The notes under the pieces are model-generated. The model was not told where the DNA came from. It ran no database searches and was given only the letters and a program-made list of their open reading frames with translations. Source: an uncultured Roseovarius sp. (GTDB taxonomy: Bacteria; Pseudomonadota; Alphaproteobacteria; Rhodobacterales; Rhodobacteraceae). Taken from it: DNA of 64,000 nt. The position numbers and the translations under genes were made by a program. Below, piece after piece: positions 56,241 to 64,000 of this stretch. The first letter of the stretch is position 1. Each line of letters begins with the position of its first letter. The DNA is taken from assembly GCA_947499555.1 (NCBI GenBank), contig CANMOU010000003.1, positions 508,979 through 572,978 of the forward strand, in the 5' to 3' direction.

Positions 56241-56503
56241 GTTCGCCCCGGTTGGCCTGTTTGTCTTTTGTCGCACTATAGGGGGCGTTTGCGATTTGCG
56301 CGAGAGGCCGATTACCCGAAAGTCACATCAAACCGCGCCCGTCACAAAAACAGGATTGTCTGCGCGCGCGCGGGGCGTCATGATTTGGCCATCTGCCGGG
56401 TGTAAATCGCGTCTTTCAGGCGCGTGCTGCCACCCCAAAGCTTAAAAAAACGGAATTAGACCCCATATATATCAATGGGATAGGTCAAAAGAGGGAGATT
56501 TGA

Positions 56504-57580
56504 ATGGCGAATTTGGATGCGCAGGTCCGCGAAAGCCAAGCTCAGGTTGAAGAGGCGCAAGCCAAGATTCAGGAGCTGACAAGCCGCATTGAAGAGGCGC
56601 GGAGCAAGATCAAGGGCGGCGAAGATGCAACACTAGACATCGAGAATGCCTCATTGGACGAGGTGCATGCGCATACCGAGATCATGAACGCCAATATTGC
56701 CGAGCTCATTATGGGGCTCGATGATATCACCGCAGGATTTTCCAAGGATTTCGACGAAATGCGCGGCAAGACCGGCTGGGAAAGCTTGGTTGGGATCTTC
56801 AGCAGCGCGAAATCCGACAGCATGCGGCAGGATCGTATTCGCACCGCGAGCATTGATGACAAGCTGCAGGATCTGATTTCCAAGTCCGACGTGATCGTGA
56901 GCCTTCTGGAAGGCCAGTTGCGCACGCTGGAAGAGCATAAGGTAAAGGTTGAGGGCAACCTGACCGAAACATTGGACGAGCGCGAATTGACCGTGGGAGA
57001 GCTGGAGACGCTGCGCACCGATATTCAGGGTATGGACCCCAAGATCATCGAGTTGGAAAACAAGATCGCCAATGAAACGGATGCTGCTGCCCGCACCAAG
57101 CTGGAAACTGAACTGGCTGAGATGAACGCCAAATACAACGAAATGGTCCAGCAAGAGCAGGTCAAGCTCGCCAAATCCCAGACGCTGGAGCGTTACATCG
57201 AGAAGGGCAAGACCTGGGTCGACAGCCTGCAGAACCAGGCCGCCACGCAGATGGTGCTCATCAACAAGCTGCAGACCGACACCAAGCAGCGCGTGGTGCT
57301 GTATGACGCGCTGACCAAATCGCTGAAGACGGCGCAGCAACAGGATGTCGCCCACCGCATCAACGAAATCGGCGTGCAAACCGACCAAGAGGCACAGTCG
57401 GCCATGGCCGGCATTGGGGCGGCGACCAACAAGCGGATGGCCGATATGCTCGAGGCGCATGAAGATCACATGGTCTTTGCCCGCGAGGTCTTGGAAGCCA
57501 AGGCCAAGGCGGATGAACGCTTTGCCCGGCGCTTTGCCAAGATCATCGAGAAACACGACGCCAACGCGTATGGAGGCTAG
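56504..57580 (+). CDS. coiled-coil helical protein, first gene of the unknown AAA+ cluster
   Basis: 358 residues from ATG 56504 after GGGAGATTTGA. Almost entirely helical and Gln/Glu/Lys-rich: coiled coil at 1-40 (AQVEEAQAKIQELTSRIEEARSK) and about 125-225 (LEEHKVKVEGNLTETLDERE; ENKIANETDAAARTKLETELAEMNAKYNE), then a helical bundle to residue 345. No membrane segment or signal. The overall layout, with alternating helices and the block SLQNQAATQMVLINKLQTDTKQRVVLYDALTKSL, is reminiscent of TelA-type toxic-anion resistance proteins, but this is a weak resemblance. An AT-rich promoter-like spacer (CATATATATC) precedes it. 3 bp separate it from the next gene. Confidence 0.75.
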   Translation: MANLDAQVRESQAQVEEAQAKIQELTSRIEEARSKIKGGEDATLDIENASLDEVHAHTEIMNANIAELIMGLDDITAGFSKDFDEMRGKTGWESLVGIFSSAKSDSMRQDRIRTASIDDKLQDLISKSDVIVSLLEGQLRTLEEHKVKVEGNLTETLDERELTVGELETLRTDIQGMDPKIIELENKIANETDAAARTKLETELAEMNAKYNEMVQQEQVKLAKSQTLERYIEKGKTWVDSLQNQAATQMVLINKLQTDTKQRVVLYDALTKSLKTAQQQDVAHRINEIGVQTDQEAQSAMAGIGAATNKRMADMLEAHEDHMVFAREVLEAKAKADERFARRFAKIIEKHDANAYGG

Positions 57581-57583
57581 GCC

Positions 57584-57745
57584 ATGGGATTGGGAGTAGC
57601 CCTGATTGCACTTTGCGTGCTCTGCCTCATCGTGTCCTTTGTCTTTACCGTCCCGGCTTGGATCAACCTGATGGGCATTCTGTTTGGCATTGCGGGCCTC
57701 GTGATGATCGGCAAGGGCCGGAAGGGTGGCGGGGACAGCGCGTGA
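57584..57745 (+). CDS. 53-residue membrane peptide
   Basis: ATG 57584 to TGA 57745 gives 53 residues, two tightly packed membrane helices (residues 2-20 LGVALIALCVLCLIVSFVFT; 25-42 INLMGILFGIAGLVMIG) and the basic tail KGRKGGGDSA. It starts 3 bp after the coiled-coil gene stop, and the following gene overlaps its 3' end, so it belongs to the same transcript. No family recognised. Small hydrophobic partners are often anchors for cytosolic AAA+ machines, which is an inference. Confidence 0.75.
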   Translation: MGLGVALIALCVLCLIVSFVFTVPAWINLMGILFGIAGLVMIGKGRKGGGDSA

Positions 57746-58892
57746 CTTCGGACTTTATGACGCGATGATGGAAACCGCATCTTCGACCCACGATCGTGCG
57801 GCCCTTACCGATCTTTTCGCCTCACGCCGCTACTTTGCCAAGTTCGAGAAGATCACCGCGCATCTGAACCGTGTCGCCGCCGTGATGCAGGCCGAAGGCG
57901 CGCTCACCAAGCAAGAGGTTGAGGTGCTGACGGCCTATGTGCAGGCCATCGCCTACACGTTCAAGGCGCTGGCGATGAAATACCTACTGGTGGGGCGCGA
58001 CACCGGGCAATTCTTCGGCTCTCTGCAGATGGATGTCGAGGAAAGCGGCTTTCCGATGTTCTCCGAACTGATGGTCATGGCCAATGACGCAGCTCAGGCC
58101 TGGCAGCACCTCGATGGCCAGCCGGGGGTCGAGACACTCAAGCGTCAGATGGTCGAGCAGATCATCTCTGATCGTGAGATACCCACACGACTGCAATTTG
58201 CCCTGTCGCAAAGGCTTTATTACGAAGAGCTGGTCAAAGGGCACCTCTTCTGGGCGCAGAATGATCCGAAGATCATCTGGCTGGAAGGGCTCAAAGACCG
58301 CCGCCGCTACTTGCTGCACTGGGCCAGTTATGACAGCCAGGTCAACCTGCCGACCATTTACCTGATGGAGCTCGAGGATACGGGCCGTCGCAGTTTGGGC
58401 AAGGATGAACGTCGCTGGCCCGAAGTGCAGGCGCATCTAATGGCCCAAGCCTTGGGTGGTCTGAAACTTCTGACCATCGCCAAGGGGTTCGACGAAAGCT
58501 TTGACGATCTGCACCCCAAACGCCTGCGCCGCCTTCATGTGGGGCCGATGTACAGCCATGCCTTCACGCGCCAGACCGGGCCGATGCGCGACGTGCTGGC
58601 CGAAGCGCAGGCGCCCAAAGGTCAGGACTGGGCGCTGGCCTGGACCGATGAGGTGTTGGAAAGCGAACGGGTGATTGAAGAGAAATCCGGCTGGTTCGGC
58701 ACGGTGGAACGAGAGGTCTTTGCGCTCGATCCGTTCTCGGGCAAGGGCGCGGAAACCGGGGCGACGCGCATGGAGCGTGCCATCATCCTGCCCGAACGCC
58801 CCTATCAGGTTCTGGCCGAAAAGAACCCGCCGGGTTTTGGCAGCGTGACCAAATACGTGGTCAGCCCGGGCGGGCGGGTGTTGAGGTATTGA
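57726..58892 (+). CDS. hypothetical protein of the AAA+ cluster
   Basis: 388 residues from GTG 57726, overlapping the membrane peptide gene by 20 bp; ATG 57765 (MMETASSTHD) is an alternative start with a weaker context. Soluble. Residues 25-200 look helical (ALTKQEVEVLTAYVQAIAYTFKALAMKYLLVG; GFPMFSELMVMANDAAQAW) with conserved-looking aromatic/charged blocks HLFWAQNDPKIIWLEGLKDRRRYLLHWASYD. A C-terminal segment has Gly/Pro turns (EKNPPGFGSVTKYVVSPGGRVLRY). I recognise no family. It ends 21 bp before the nuclease-like gene. Confidence 0.8.
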   Translation: MAGTARDFGLYDAMMETASSTHDRAALTDLFASRRYFAKFEKITAHLNRVAAVMQAEGALTKQEVEVLTAYVQAIAYTFKALAMKYLLVGRDTGQFFGSLQMDVEESGFPMFSELMVMANDAAQAWQHLDGQPGVETLKRQMVEQIISDREIPTRLQFALSQRLYYEELVKGHLFWAQNDPKIIWLEGLKDRRRYLLHWASYDSQVNLPTIYLMELEDTGRRSLGKDERRWPEVQAHLMAQALGGLKLLTIAKGFDESFDDLHPKRLRRLHVGPMYSHAFTRQTGPMRDVLAEAQAPKGQDWALAWTDEVLESERVIEEKSGWFGTVEREVFALDPFSGKGAETGATRMERAIILPERPYQVLAEKNPPGFGSVTKYVVSPGGRVLRY

Positions 58893-58913
58893 AGATAATG
58901 GATTGAAGCAAGA

Positions 58914-59789
58914 ATGGTTGAATACACAAAACTCAAACAAGTTTCGTTAAAAGATCACCCGGAAATTCGTGAAGAATGGGTGCAGAATGTCATCGCCGAG
59001 GATCCAAGTATCTTAGGCCTTGGAGAGGTTTACCTCAGAGACCGCGAAAGGATCCAACCGAAGGCGGGCAGGCTTGATCTGCTTCTGCAAGATCCAGAAA
59101 CAAGTCGCCGGTACGAGGTCGAAATTCAACTTGGTGCGACGGACCCGTCGCATATAATTCGAGCTTTGGAATATTGGGACATAGAGCGCAGGCGTTACCC
59201 GCAATACGACCATTGTGCGGTCATTGTGGCCGAGGAGATAACGGCACGTTTTCTAAATGTGATTTCTTTGTTTAATGGCCAAATTCCACTGATTGCAATT
59301 CAGATGAAGGCCGTCGAAACCGAAGGCCATGTGTCTCTGTTCTTCACGAAGGTGCTTGACGAAATTGCTTTGGGACTTGTCGATGAGGACGAAGACGCAG
59401 CATCGGCTCCAGCAGATAGAGCGTATTGGGAAAGCAAGTCCAACCCAAAGATCGTTAAGCTCGCAGATCATCTCCTTTCTGAGTTGAAAGAGTTAGAGCC
59501 GACGCTGGAGCTGAATTACAATAAGCACTATATCGGCCTGTCTAGGAATGGACAGGCCTTCAATTTCGTCACTTTTCGACCCAAAAAACAGAGATTTAAC
59601 TTAGAAGTTAAGTTGCCCAGAACTGACGCGATTGATGAACTCATCGAGGGCTCGGGGATCGACACTCTTGAATACAACAGCCGGTGGTCGATGTATCGGT
59701 TGTCGCTTCGGCCAGAAGACCTACAGAAAAGTCGAGACGTTGTTGAACGCTTGTGCCGGGATGCCTACACTCGGCGAGTTTCCCAATGA
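58914..59789 (+). CDS. PD-(D/E)XK-type nuclease-like protein with DUF5655-like C-terminus
   Basis: 291 residues. A nuclease-type core is visible: GRLDLLLQDPETSRRYEVEI and QLG, with Asp55 and Glu68/Glu70 and Gln72 in the place of the usual E-x-K. The C-terminal part (about 190-285) resembles DUF5655-type modules (NYNKHYIGLSRNGQAFNFVTFRPKKQRFNLEVKLP). The gene is AT-richer than both neighbours and uses codons such as AAA, TTA and TCT more often, so I infer it was inserted into the cluster. The substituted Lys would weaken or alter catalysis; a DNA-binding, non-cutting role is possible. Confidence 0.65.
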   Translation: MVEYTKLKQVSLKDHPEIREEWVQNVIAEDPSILGLGEVYLRDRERIQPKAGRLDLLLQDPETSRRYEVEIQLGATDPSHIIRALEYWDIERRRYPQYDHCAVIVAEEITARFLNVISLFNGQIPLIAIQMKAVETEGHVSLFFTKVLDEIALGLVDEDEDAASAPADRAYWESKSNPKIVKLADHLLSELKELEPTLELNYNKHYIGLSRNGQAFNFVTFRPKKQRFNLEVKLPRTDAIDELIEGSGIDTLEYNSRWSMYRLSLRPEDLQKSRDVVERLCRDAYTRRVSQ

Positions 59790-59847
59790 ACTTTGTTAAC
59801 TGCGTACCCAAGGGTTTGGGTCTGCACACCCTAAATAGGATATCCAG

Positions 59848-61782
59848 ATGAGTTTGACGGCCGATACGATGGAGCTTCGCGAAGAAGACATCACCAAGCA
59901 TTACGAGGCGGCCGCGGCGATGTTGGCGGGGTTTGATCACACCCCGCGTATTGCAAAGCCTGTCGAGGGCGAGGCGCAGGAGAAATCGGCCGGTCTGGGC
60001 ACGCGGCGGCGGTTTCGCACCACGACGCCTGGGCTGGTGACCCGCTCAACCGCGCGGCCTGAGGGCGTTCAACTGACCGCGCGTATCGAGGGCGCGGATG
60101 ATGGCGACCCGCTGGTCAGCCCTCTGCAGGCGACGGTCCTGCACGGGCTGCGCCGGGCCTTGGCCATCGCGTTGGCGGTGGGTGAGCAGTTTGCCGAAGC
60201 CACAGGGCTTGCCGATCTGCGCCGCGCCAATCTGGCGGGGTCTCTGGCCGAGGCGCGAAAATCCGAATTTACCGCGCTTCTGGGGGCCGAGGCGCTGGCC
60301 GTGGGGCACGTGTTTGGCAATGCCACCGCCTTTCTCATGGGTCCACATAGCTCTGAGGTGAGCGTCGAGGTGGGCGATGTTGAGGAGGTGCTTAGCGACA
60401 ACGCGCAACTGATGCTGCACGGCGCATTGTGGGAGCTGGACCAGGATATTGCGGCCCATGCGGGCGATGATGCGCGGCTCGTTGCGACCGTCGCGGCCTT
60501 TGCCGAGCAGTTGATGGAAAAGATCACCCTGCGCGCCCAAAACGCCGGAAGGCTCGAGGCCTTTACCGGCGCAAGCTGGCGCGTGGAGGCGGATGACTTC
60601 ACCATTCGCGGCTTTGAGCCTGCGGCCAAGGGCAAATCGACAACCCTGACCATGACTTTCAAAAAACCCCATGAGGTCGTGGGCAACCACATCGCCAAGT
60701 ATCAGGCTTTGAAGCTTTCCAAGATGCTCATGGCCTATGATTTCGACCGGCGTCTTAACCCGTTTGCCGAACTGGGCGGGTTCATTTTCACCTTCATGGG
60801 CGATGGCAAACCGGGGACGGGGAAGACCACGCTCATTCAGATGATGGCGGGCTTGATCAACGAGTATTGCCAGAACGCAGGCTACGCCTTTCGCTACCAG
60901 AACCTCAGCACGGACAGCATCGACAGCTATCAGGGCAAGTCGGCACAAAATGCCAAGGCGTTTATCAACAACGTGCTTGATCCGGGCGTCATCGGCTTTG
61001 GCACGATTGATGACATAGACCAATTGGCGGGTAAGCGCGGCGACCGGCAATCAAGCGCCGGGCAGCTCGAGATCACTGCCGTGCTGATGGAAAGCTTTGC
61101 GGGCGCCAACACCGTGGTGCGCGGCAATTGCACCTTTGGCATGTTCTCGAACTATCCCGAGAATGTGGATGACGCCCTGCGCCAACGCGCTGGGGCGCGG
61201 TTTCTTGTCGACGGGCCCCAGACGCGCGAGGATTACATCGACATCCTTTACCTTCTGATGGGCAAGAACCACGACATCCCGCTGGGCGAGCATGAGGTCT
61301 ATGCCGCCCAGGAAATCAAAAAGGCCGTCGCGGCGAGTTTTGAGTCTCACAGCCGCCCGCATGAGGACGGGCTTTTGAAAGTCTATGACCGGGTATCCAA
61401 AGACATCGGCGCGCTCGACACGATTGCCAAGATGGGTACGTATCTCAAGGGCATTCAGGAGGCCGATGAGCGCTTTACCGGACGGGCGATCAAGAACATC
61501 ACCGATGCGGTGAAGGTGCGGGCCATGGACTTTGAACTGCCCGATGAATGGATGGAAAACCCCGATCTGTTCCTGTTCAAGGATTACGACACCAAGAAAG
61601 CCATGATCGAAGAGCTGCGCCAGCCCATCACCATCGAAATGGTGATACAGGAAATCAACCGCTACGCGGATTCAGAGTTCCGCTATGCGGATAAATCCGA
61701 CGAGGTGGCCATTGAGACCGCCGTGCGTGAGATGGGGCGCATGGAAGAAGCCAAGCGGCGGTATCTGGAGGGGAAGGGGTGA
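59848..61782 (+). CDS. AAA+ ATPase of the unknown cluster
   Basis: 644 residues from ATG 59848. Residues 1-300 are a novel Ala/Glu-rich N-terminal region with no recognised domain. The AAA+ core is complete: Walker A GDGKPGTGKTT (318-328), a Walker B-type TIDDID (386-391, with Asp where the catalytic Glu is expected), sensor 1 Asn in MFSNYPENVDDALRQR, and a following arginine-finger candidate. The C-terminal part is helical (EELRQPITIEMVIQEINRYADSEF). It probably drives remodelling of the helical or membrane partners encoded beside it. The function of the whole set is unknown. Confidence 0.85.
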   Translation: MSLTADTMELREEDITKHYEAAAAMLAGFDHTPRIAKPVEGEAQEKSAGLGTRRRFRTTTPGLVTRSTARPEGVQLTARIEGADDGDPLVSPLQATVLHGLRRALAIALAVGEQFAEATGLADLRRANLAGSLAEARKSEFTALLGAEALAVGHVFGNATAFLMGPHSSEVSVEVGDVEEVLSDNAQLMLHGALWELDQDIAAHAGDDARLVATVAAFAEQLMEKITLRAQNAGRLEAFTGASWRVEADDFTIRGFEPAAKGKSTTLTMTFKKPHEVVGNHIAKYQALKLSKMLMAYDFDRRLNPFAELGGFIFTFMGDGKPGTGKTTLIQMMAGLINEYCQNAGYAFRYQNLSTDSIDSYQGKSAQNAKAFINNVLDPGVIGFGTIDDIDQLAGKRGDRQSSAGQLEITAVLMESFAGANTVVRGNCTFGMFSNYPENVDDALRQRAGARFLVDGPQTREDYIDILYLLMGKNHDIPLGEHEVYAAQEIKKAVAASFESHSRPHEDGLLKVYDRVSKDIGALDTIAKMGTYLKGIQEADERFTGRAIKNITDAVKVRAMDFELPDEWMENPDLFLFKDYDTKKAMIEELRQPITIEMVIQEINRYADSEFRYADKSDEVAIETAVREMGRMEEAKRRYLEGKG

Positions 61783-61870
61783 GCGGTCTGTTTCCTGCAG
61801 TCCCGCAAGTGATAAGGGACCTTATGGTCGGCTGGGAGACCCCGGTTTATGCCCGGGGCGGCGCAAACAT

Positions 61871-62173
61871 ATGACCGCCCTCATCCTCACATCACTTGCA
61901 GCTCTTGGTCTCGGTGCTGTGCTACCTCTCAAATCACTTCTGGTGCTCTTCCTCGGTGGGGTCCTTCTGCTCTTCGTGATCCATTTCGGCACAATTGCTC
62001 TGACCGGTTTCGGTGGGCTTCCGGCCAGTGACGCGCTTTTGCTTTTTGAAGGGCAGTGGAGCTATTACCTGGCCTATTCCGCAGAACATGCGCTGCGCCG
62101 GTTTGCCATACCTGTGATCCTGTTCGGGGCCGTGCTGATGTGGCGTCTGAGCCGAAAGGAGGATGTGGTTTGA
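61871..62173 (+). CDS. small three-helix membrane protein
   Basis: 100 residues from ATG 61871 (MTALILTSLAALGLGAVLPL). Membrane helices at about 3-18, 20-47 (SLLVLFLGGVLLLFVIHFGTIAL) and 76-92 (AIPVILFGAVLMWRL). Ends KEDVV. Its stop TGA overlaps the next gene's TTG start (TTGA), so translation is coupled. An 88-bp gap separates it from the ATPase gene. No family recognised. Confidence 0.75.
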   Translation: MTALILTSLAALGLGAVLPLKSLLVLFLGGVLLLFVIHFGTIALTGFGGLPASDALLLFEGQWSYYLAYSAEHALRRFAIPVILFGAVLMWRLSRKEDVV

Positions 62174-62805
62174 GCCTGCTGGAGTCAAAACCATGGAGCG
62201 TCGCCTTGGGCCTCGGGGCGGTCCTCATCGCCCTGGCCTTCTGGGCGGCCTCTGTTTTTGAAGGCTCCGGGTTGCTGAGCACCACACCCCCCGCCACTGA
62301 GGCAAACCCGACCCCACAACCAGACACCGACGAGAGCACCATCCTCGCTCTTTACCAATCCGCCTTCACCGCCTGGGCTGCGCTGGTCCTGTTGATCCCG
62401 GCCTATGCCTATTACCTTTCGCAAGGGGCAAATCGTGGCTGGATGGCTTTCTGGACGGCGTCTTACCTGGCTTATCTGGTGCATCTTTATGTCTCGGCGT
62501 TTCTCTTTTTTGGCGGCGATTTTGCCTGGATGACCAGTTCCTCGCGGGTCAGCGCCTTTTGGCCCGGAATGCTGCTTATCCCGTGGTGGGGATTGGACAT
62601 CGTCTTGGCGTTCAAATCCATCGATGCCGCATGGGTCCGCATTCAGCGCGGGGTTTTGCATCTGGGCACATTTGTGCTTTTCTTTGGCGGCTCAGTGATC
62701 AAAGGGGAAACGATGACGATCAAAGCGCTGGGTATCGTGTTTGCACTCGTGGCATTGGCCTGCCTGATCAAACCCCGCCTCACCGCCTCCGGAAAGGAAG
62801 CCTGA
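62170..62805 (+). CDS. polytopic membrane protein
   Basis: 211 residues from TTG 62170 (MSLLESKPWSVALGLGAVLI), with AAAGGAGG a few bases upstream, overlapping the previous stop by 4 bp. Six likely membrane helices (about 12-32, 62-82, 90-110, 125-145, 160-180, 185-203), and a Pro/Thr-rich loop (STTPPATEANPTPQPDTDES) after the first. No enzyme motif. The next gene starts 1 bp after its TGA. Confidence 0.75.
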   Translation: MSLLESKPWSVALGLGAVLIALAFWAASVFEGSGLLSTTPPATEANPTPQPDTDESTILALYQSAFTAWAALVLLIPAYAYYLSQGANRGWMAFWTASYLAYLVHLYVSAFLFFGGDFAWMTSSSRVSAFWPGMLLIPWWGLDIVLAFKSIDAAWVRIQRGVLHLGTFVLFFGGSVIKGETMTIKALGIVFALVALACLIKPRLTASGKEA

Positions 62806-62806
62806 C

Positions 62807-64000
62807 ATGCACCGCCTGATCCAATCCGGCCTCATGTTTGGCAATCTGGTCCACGTGGCCAGCCCCGCACTGGTTGAGCGGTACAACCGGGCGCTCAAGT
62901 CGCTGACGGGCAAGACGACCAAGCTGACGGATTTCTACATCGACATTTCGGGCTACTCCCCCGAGATCGGCCATGAATTGGGCGATGACCTGTACCTCAA
63001 CCATGCAGGCGTGAACCGACAGTTCATCCTGCTCACCACGGATCAGAAAACAGCGCCTTTGCTCAACGCCAAATTCTCCACCGCGCGCGGCATTCTGCGG
63101 CAGTTCATCGAGGAAAACGAGTCTGCGCTTTTTGCTCTCACGGCCCGCGACGCGGTGGCCGGGGAGTTGGTGAATTCGGTCTATGACATGTCCTCGCCCG
63201 CGCGGCTTTTTGATATTCGCAAGATCACGGTCGAGGCCGATACGACCAACGGCGCGCTGGGGCAGGCGGATGAACTGGCCCAGAAGGTTGATCGCTTCAT
63301 GTCCGAAGAGGATGCGTGGTTTGATGATGTACTCATCGCCGAGATGATCGAACTGGCCGGCCAGACCGGTAACGTGCTGCGAAACCCCATTGAGCTCAAG
63401 CAGATGAGCTTTGAGCAGCGCAATTACTGGACCGACCATTTCGGCGGCGTCTACCTTTTTCAGGATCTCGATTTACCCGGCGTGATTTGTTCCGCTGACA
63501 GCGCACTTTTCGAAGGCGGTCCGATTGAGTATGTCTTTGATCTCAGGCATAGAAATCGTATTGCCGGGTTCCTCGAACTCAACGGTCTGGTGGAGCCCAT
63601 TGTCAAAGCGCGCGGCATCGACGCCGCGGCGATCCTGCGCCAGAAGATGGATTTCATCCTGGTCGATGCCCTGGCTGGTGAAGGGCTTGATCTGGCGGGG
63701 CGCTCTCCTTCCGAAATGCGCCGCCTCGCGCGCCGCTATGCCAGCCACCTGCCGCGAGAATTCCATACGCTGAACGCGCTGCTGAACTGGGCGGAAAATG
63801 GCGGGCCCTGGCCAGTGATCAGCTCGGATGATCCGGCGTTTTTCTACACGCTGCGCGCGGCTGCACATAAGGATGCCGATCTGGTCAATATGCTTCTGAG
63901 CGAACTTGCCCCGAAAGACATCCGACAGCTTTTCATCTGCCACAAGACGCTTTTCTACCGCCAATACGCGACCTGGTCGGACGCCAAAAAGAACTATGTC
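62807..64000 (+). CDS. large unknown protein, 3' end beyond the window
   Basis: 398 visible residues from ATG 62807 with GGAAAGGAAG upstream; no stop before the right edge. It starts HRLIQSGLMFGNLVHVASPALVERYNRALKSLTGKTTKLTDFYIDISGYS, which I recall, unverified, as like a Rhodobacterales family (DUF6638). Soluble, mixed alpha/beta, with no signal or membrane helix in the visible part. Repeated motifs were not found. It is the last visible gene of the AAA+ cluster. Confidence 0.8.
   Translation, partial: MHRLIQSGLMFGNLVHVASPALVERYNRALKSLTGKTTKLTDFYIDISGYSPEIGHELGDDLYLNHAGVNRQFILLTTDQKTAPLLNAKFSTARGILRQFIEENESALFALTARDAVAGELVNSVYDMSSPARLFDIRKITVEADTTNGALGQADELAQKVDRFMSEEDAWFDDVLIAEMIELAGQTGNVLRNPIELKQMSFEQRNYWTDHFGGVYLFQDLDLPGVICSADSALFEGGPIEYVFDLRHRNRIAGFLELNGLVEPIVKARGIDAAAILRQKMDFILVDALAGEGLDLAGRSPSEMRRLARRYASHLPREFHTLNALLNWAENGGPWPVISSDDPAFFYTLRAAAHKDADLVNMLLSELAPKDIRQLFICHKTLFYRQYATWSDAKKNYV

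Follow-up and report, generated by a model that had tools for sequence, protein, structure and literature searches.

Results

Genes at the locus

The 64,000-nucleotide stretch analysed here (the window; G000:C3:508979-572978) derives from a Roseovarius-like genome whose nearest named contigs are Roseovarius, and its right-hand end carries a run of plus-strand genes that includes an ATPase of the AAA+ type (ATPases associated with diverse cellular activities). Four of these genes, here termed coil, unk388, AAA+ and DUF6638, constitute the core of a conserved block, and the others occupy three junctions between core genes, designated slot 1 (coil/unk388), slot 2 (unk388/AAA+) and slot 3 (AAA+/DUF6638). 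The features, in window coordinates, are:

56437..56469, plus strand: upstream site, 67 bp before coil, at the palindrome position of other lineages; diverged here
56504..57580, plus strand: coil, core gene 1; soluble helical protein of 358 residues
57584..57745, plus strand: slot 1 gene; 53-residue peptide with two transmembrane (TM) segments; accessory, not core
57726..58892, plus strand: unk388, core gene 2; 388 residues, GTG start
58914..59789, plus strand: slot 2 gene; 291 residues, nuclease-like N-terminal half plus DUF5655
59848..61782, plus strand: AAA+, core gene 3; classic-clade AAA protein of 644 residues
61871..62173 (start approximate), plus strand: first slot 3 gene; small membrane protein of 100 residues, accessory
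62170..62805, plus strand: second slot 3 gene; membrane protein of 211 residues, accessory
62807..64000, plus strand: DUF6638 (PF20343), core gene 4; cut by the window edge

The initial annotation had described this run as a tightly spaced same-strand cluster, and the reading frames, the 3-bp and 1-bp gaps and the 4-bp overlap are all present; it overlooked the 291-residue gene at 58914-59789, owing to which unk388 and AAA+ lie 955 bp apart. The 20-bp overlap holds with the GTG start of unk388 and disappears if translation begins instead at an in-frame ATG at 57765, a possible alternative start. The last gene, formerly listed as a large unknown, matches DUF6638 with E 1e-203 (677.5 bits; positions 1-389 of 439 inside the window and 1-438 in the whole gene) and encodes 468 residues in full (L002:8786-10192). 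Beyond the window edge, DUF6638 is followed by an 88-residue protein with two TM segments and then by DUF1523. These two are the constant membrane partners of the block, and both lie outside the window; the 53-, 100- and 211-residue membrane proteins previously put forward as partners turn out to be slot genes present in few relatives, not core genes.

A four-gene block kept in one order

The block was followed through 114 loci holding the ATPase, comprising the window's own, 80 named genome contigs, further genome stretches, and plasmid records from Vibrio, Sinorhizobium and Shinella, with genes called by a simple open reading frame (ORF) rule. Core-protein profiles find all four genes in 108 of the 114 loci, one of them a decayed copy (L177), and we find that in 108/108 the genes lie on one strand and run coil, unk388, AAA+, DUF6638; DUF1523 is also present in 95 of these. 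Taken singly, unk388 is found in 113/114 loci and DUF6638 in 110/114. The loci without all four are short contigs or contig ends (L051, L084 and L112), a contig of a metagenome-assembled genome with AAA+ alone in the stretch (L106), and two in which DUF6638 is missing from the stretch examined (L053 and L139).

Genome-wide co-occurrence covers AAA+, coil and DUF6638 (unk388 being counted in the 114 loci only), and in an even sample of the order each of the three is found in 137 of 244 genomes. The genome lists for coil and AAA+ are identical, and the DUF6638 list comprises the same genomes by eye. Among the 137 are G010, from the window's genus, with a decayed operon (L177; G010:C52:15000-34000) in which coil, AAA+ and DUF6638 are broken and unk388 is partial, and G264, whose operon is split at slot 3 across two contigs (L139 and L209), both halves being present, with coil-unk388-AAA+ on one contig and DUF6638 plus DUF1523 on the other. 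An AAA+ match occurs in 15 of 36 genomes of the window's genus, one of them decayed, in 26/398 genomes of a phylum-wide sample, in 5/289 genomes of a class sample (DUF6638 in 4/240) and in 1/43 genomes of the order of the outlier G481. Pairwise distances of the core proteins correlate with r of 0.93-0.98 over 107 loci, and 0.88-0.93 within Rhodobacterales-type loci.

The initial annotation had proposed to look for the same gene order in distant genera, and it is indeed kept: all four genes recur in that arrangement on replicons of Sinorhizobium, Shinella and Vibrio, with Vibrio AAA+ proteins 39-40% identical and a Vibrio coil homologue 37% identical. By gene content and position, these comparisons show four genes kept together in one order and strand across Alpha- and Gammaproteobacteria, usually in single copy. 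The clustering goes beyond chance, because 108/108 loci keep order and strand and three of the genes share the same 137/244 genomes. The suggestion of an undescribed multi-gene system is thereby borne out as a conserved unit that matched no named system in the libraries searched, and we regard its existence and unity as very nearly certain.

Horizontal transfer of the block

Genes immediately upstream of the block belong to 60 families (108 loci) and those immediately downstream to 56 (96 loci), with neighbours common to some Roseovarius; the block has therefore moved often. In the tree, the copy from a genome of another class (L171) groups with copies from three Leisingera and one other Rhodobacteraceae (support 0.96, and 0.997 with one more), and that from another family of the class (L172) is paired with one from the window's family (support 0.99). 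Both lines of comparison show, at the level of gene phylogeny and neighbourhood, transfer of the block between genomes as a unit.

The membrane proteins that follow the block differ between lineages. Gene order shows the 88-residue protein plus DUF1523 in Rhodobacterales and DUF2333 in Sinorhizobium/Shinella-type loci, where it lies directly after DUF6638 in 7/7 cases (two named records and five genomes from another family of the class). Two Vibrio replicons, each about 0.9 Mb long and recorded as a plasmid (L158 and L160), carry a compact four-gene form with no slot genes, followed by mfd.

The ATPase and its core partners

The ATPase contains an AAA domain (PF00004; 46.2 bits against a cut-off of 21.2) at about residues 270-455, an N-terminal helical region at residues 91-260 (block predicted local distance difference test score, pLDDT, of 75-95) and a helical C-terminus. 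The pattern GDGxPGTGKT lies around residues 318-327 and includes lysine K326. Invariant in 30/30 (A1) and 14/14 (A6) aligned rows are K326, Y361-Q362-G363, D388-D389, N435, R447 and R451, which we take to be, in turn, Walker A, the pore loop, Walker B, sensor 1 and the paired arginine fingers R447/R451. The complete Walker A/B set once attributed to this protein is contradicted at one position: Walker A is there, but the catalytic Glu expected in Walker B is Asp (D389) in every aligned row, Vibrio included. Despite D389, the domain match and the other motifs place the protein in the AAA superfamily, and the pore loop suggests substrate threading. The ATPase has no match in the phage collection searched, and it matches the PADLOC model for TRIP13 with an E of only 2.1e-5.

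Coil is the slowest evolving of the four core proteins, with a median distance within Rhodobacterales-type loci of 0.21, compared with 0.23 for AAA+, 0.34 for unk388 and 0.35 for DUF6638. The window's coil protein has no Pfam match above the cut-off. Kinship of this helical protein with TelA, raised in the initial annotation, finds no support: the coil profile compared with the genome's own TelA gives an hhalign probability of 1.7% over 25 columns, the six matches of the window protein do not include PF05816 (TelA), and the 25 families shown, out of 49, for 30 coil members likewise lack it. The genuine TelA gene lies elsewhere in the genome (L157:1444-2637), beside 299-residue and 317-residue ORFs on the same strand.

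For unk388, a helical N-terminal half and a beta-rich C-terminal half are predicted; its structure model is confident (pLDDT 87; predicted template modelling score 0.85) and has no confident known-fold match in the fold comparison. DUF6638 carries a GPWG motif in its tail in 94 of 110 copies, starting a median of 9 residues from the C-terminus. The name DUF6638 was not found in the literature collection searched.

Accessory genes at fixed junctions

Same-strand ORFs of at least 60 residues occur in slot 1 of 41/109 loci, slot 2 of 16/112 and slot 3 of 78/106; the DUF6638/88-residue junction holds one in 1/94 loci and the 88-residue/DUF1523 junction in 0/94. Lenient clustering sorts the contents of slots 1, 2 and 3 into 32, 18 and 53 families. 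The longest sense ORF exceeds the longest antisense ORF in median length (93 vs 51 residues in slot 1; 165 vs 73 in slot 3) and far more often bears a hydrophobic stretch (40/47 vs 0/47 in slot 1; 54/84 vs 5/84 in slot 3), and the start lies at most 25 nt from the upstream stop in 36/47 slot 1 and 52/84 slot 3 cases. TM segments are found in 36/41 slot 1 ORFs and 53/78 slot 3 ORFs, compared with means of 11% and 23% in size-matched flank ORFs (maxima of 300 draws, 24% and 37%). The TM and start-spacing controls are unselected; the Pfam and PADLOC cargo counts, the third-codon-position GC content (GC3) and the empty-slot counts refer to a selected set (A7) of 64 proteins, namely 63 of 96 slot representatives picked by eye, with likely wrong-frame ORFs dropped, plus L051:3197-3904. 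On that basis, slot ORFs of at least 90 residues have a lower GC3 than core genes (median 0.53 vs 0.76), and in 19 of 104 loci all slots lack a cargo-like ORF; the core therefore does not need cargo. Taken together, the ORF comparisons show that the slots hold unrelated accessory genes, which in slots 1 and 3 are mostly small membrane proteins.

Recognised slot genes include Mrr, DUF559, Fic, PIN_10, DUF433, AbiJ_NTD4, DUF2971 and a DNA polymerase III alpha-type gene, the assignment of families to individual proteins being partly inferred, since the Pfam and PADLOC tables list families by member number. PIN_10 and DUF433 are probably an adjacent pair in L092. In another locus, an insertion of about 5.6 kb with the DNA polymerase III alpha-type gene separates unk388 from AAA+ (L147:10427-15823). 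Of the 64 cargo proteins, 6 to 12 have PADLOC matches, to 24 families, compared with 2 to 11 proteins of the size-matched flank set, to 10 families, mostly regulator-type models; the excess of cargo over flanks is modest, and one of kind more than number. Among the 64 flank genes, the Pfam families shown, 25 of the 54 listed, are largely ordinary metabolic ones.

The slots differ between close relatives. Three loci whose AAA+ proteins are 95-97% identical (the window, L143 and L144) do not share one set of slot genes: the DUF5655 nuclease-like gene and two membrane proteins occur in the window, L143 carries an Mrr-type gene and none of those, and in L144 the two membrane proteins are retained, the nuclease-like gene is missing and two further small ORFs are present. 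The C-terminal half of the window's 291-residue protein is DUF5655 (PF18899, E 8.7e-7), and its N-terminal half, from the motifs G-R-L-D and E-V-E-I-Q, reads like a PD-(D/E)XK nuclease; the protein also matches PADLOC PDC-S18 (E 3.4e-5). A tblastn search with this gene finds no locus beyond the genome's own, and the close relatives L143 and L144 lack it. The same method detects the 53-residue peptide in few relatives; the 100-residue protein has weak matches in some relatives, and the family of the 211-residue protein occurs in 3 loci.

A palindrome upstream of the operon

The k-mer GATGTAA is present in 50 of 108 sequences upstream of coil, compared with 3 of 654 controls, and belongs to a palindrome, GGGGATGTAAATN5TAACATtCCCTATa, which precedes coil by a median distance of 67 bp (quartiles 66 and 68), as in L070 and L117 among others. 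A position-weight matrix places 62/108 upstream sequences above the 99th percentile of controls, having been trained on the same upstream sequences; the k-mer enrichment and the site specificity are independent of this training. Allowing one mismatch, the short palindrome pattern is found in 47/114 loci (58 matches on both strands), always before coil and nowhere else in the loci. The exact pattern occurs in 7 of 116 whole genomes, in six of the seven at the operon. A one-mismatch scan of 20 genomes, hand-chosen among operon carriers, places a palindrome at the operon in 17 and reveals five further sites, four of which, spread over 4 of the 20 genomes, adjoin glnE homologues, two of these four in a divergent glnE/DUF2852 region. 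The window itself (L002) scores -10.9 at the palindrome site, compared with a control 99th percentile of -4.7, and the palindrome is lost or replaced in the window's own group.

Discussion

A candidate remodelling machine

We propose, at a probability of about 0.5, that the block encodes a transferable four-protein machine for ATP-driven remodelling, with membrane partners and swappable accessory genes. The AAA protein would form a ring and thread or pull a protein substrate through its pore loop, and we consider such a threading motor somewhat better than an even bet. As the partner with the highest conservation, coil would be the best candidate for the substrate or a scaffold. Adaptor roles may fall to unk388 and DUF6638, the latter docking through its GPWG tail in Rhodobacterales. 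The membrane proteins could anchor the work of the machine at the cytoplasmic membrane, a location that we likewise lean towards. Upon envelope stress or attack by a phage or a rival, the machine might then assemble and dismantle a coil-containing complex at the envelope, and the accessory genes, sharing the operon promoter, would supply lineage-specific functions.

Several observations weigh against this proposal. The proposal rests on sequence comparison, and the 114 loci were picked by AAA+ similarity and are not dereplicated, some possibly being one genome under two handles. With Asp at the Walker B Glu position in every aligned copy, the enzyme may hydrolyse ATP slowly or under regulation, unlike a fast motor, and the structure model of the AAA protein is poor (pLDDT 66). 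All four core proteins are without TM stretches by a hydropathy rule, and the membrane link is therefore through neighbours only; in Vibrio, mfd takes the place after DUF6638. Slot 2 shows no TM excess (5/16, compared with a mean of 19% and a maximum of 50% in 300 draws). The GPWG motif is missing in 16/110 DUF6638 proteins (among them those of Sinorhizobium, Shinella and Vibrio, L152, L171 and some cut or decayed genes) and is therefore not a universal docking signal.

Alternative explanations

An alternative that overlaps with the remodelling machine, and that we think rather unlikely, is a modular defence against phages or competitors, in which the core would sense attack, with the membrane proteins, nucleases, Fic and toxin-antitoxin genes of the slots serving as interchangeable effectors in the manner of systems like CBASS (cyclic oligonucleotide-based antiphage signalling systems). 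The patchy presence of the whole block and its transfer as a block, the many upstream-neighbour families, the decay in G010, the exchange of slot genes between near-identical relatives, and the presence in the slots of an Mrr restriction enzyme and the other families named above, from DUF559 to DUF2971, all fit such a system. Yet the effectors are not obligatory, the flanks are largely metabolic and do not resemble a defence island, the PADLOC excess of the cargo is modest, PADLOC gives nothing better than E 2e-5 for any of the window's core proteins, and the ATPase is unmatched in the phage collection. Most arms-race sensors are not known for strong conservation, whereas coil is strongly conserved. 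The most far-reaching version, a horizontally moved, ATP-powered immune or conflict machine of Proteobacteria, with a four-protein core, a palindromic operator in many lineages and junctions loaded with membrane-acting or DNA-cutting effectors, appears to us a shade less probable still.

About as doubtful as modular defence is a conserved operon for envelope or protein-quality stress, the slots of which would be tolerated insertion points that use the promoter with no functional tie to the core. The empty slots, the lower GC3 of slot ORFs, the DNA polymerase III alpha-type gene in one slot and the distinct palindrome marking the promoter speak for it. Random insertion does not, however, account for the frequency of small membrane proteins in slots 1 and 3, nor for slot ORFs that lie on the same strand and start so close to the upstream stop, nor for last junctions nearly free of insertions. 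A TelA-like system for resistance to tellurite or other toxic ions would find some encouragement in a helical protein beside an ATPase and membrane proteins, but we consider it highly improbable given the failed alignment of coil with TelA, the lack of TelA among the coil matches shown and the separate TelA gene in the genome.

The block occurs in more than half of the genomes sampled from the order (137/244), yet three of its four core proteins are functionally uncharacterised, and coil and unk388 lack even a family name. With three genes found in the same genomes and a gene order common to two classes of Proteobacteria, the block lends itself to genetic tests. Whatever the core does, the fixed junctions, which gather membrane proteins, restriction-type enzymes and toxin-antitoxin-type genes, are a possible source of new effector families.

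Comparison with known systems

Profile libraries give no match to the CD-NTase (cGAS/DncV-like nucleotidyltransferase) or HORMA proteins of type III (TRIP13) CBASS in the eight window proteins, and the fold comparison for HORMA, which covered unk388 only, gave no confident match. No BREX (bacteriophage exclusion) model matched the eight proteins either. BREX and its relatives are defence operons that carry inserted accessory genes, and the likeness to them lies in a conserved core whose fixed junctions hold variable restriction- or toxin-like genes; the present block differs in that most slot 1 and slot 3 genes are small membrane proteins and its flanks are not defence-like. TelA (PF05816) resembles coil as a soluble helical protein with membrane neighbours, but no sequence kinship was found. 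The last window gene is a member of the Pfam entry DUF6638, which names no function.

Other comparisons concern the ATPase. For a disassembly pair like Vps4 and ESCRT-III (endosomal sorting complex required for transport III), in which an ATPase hexamer threads a helical filament protein, the sequence bears on the pore loop, which is present. With Cdc48/p97, FtsH/Yme1, Vps4 and the 26S Rpt proteins the ATPase shares the AAA domain, Walker A, the aromatic-X-Gly pore loop, the sensor 1 Asn and the paired arginine fingers, and it differs from them in the Asp that replaces the Walker B Glu and in its fixed three-gene retinue of uncharacterised families. A distinct N-terminal helical region of about 260 residues, together with a long C-terminal helical part, further sets it apart among classic-clade AAA remodellers.

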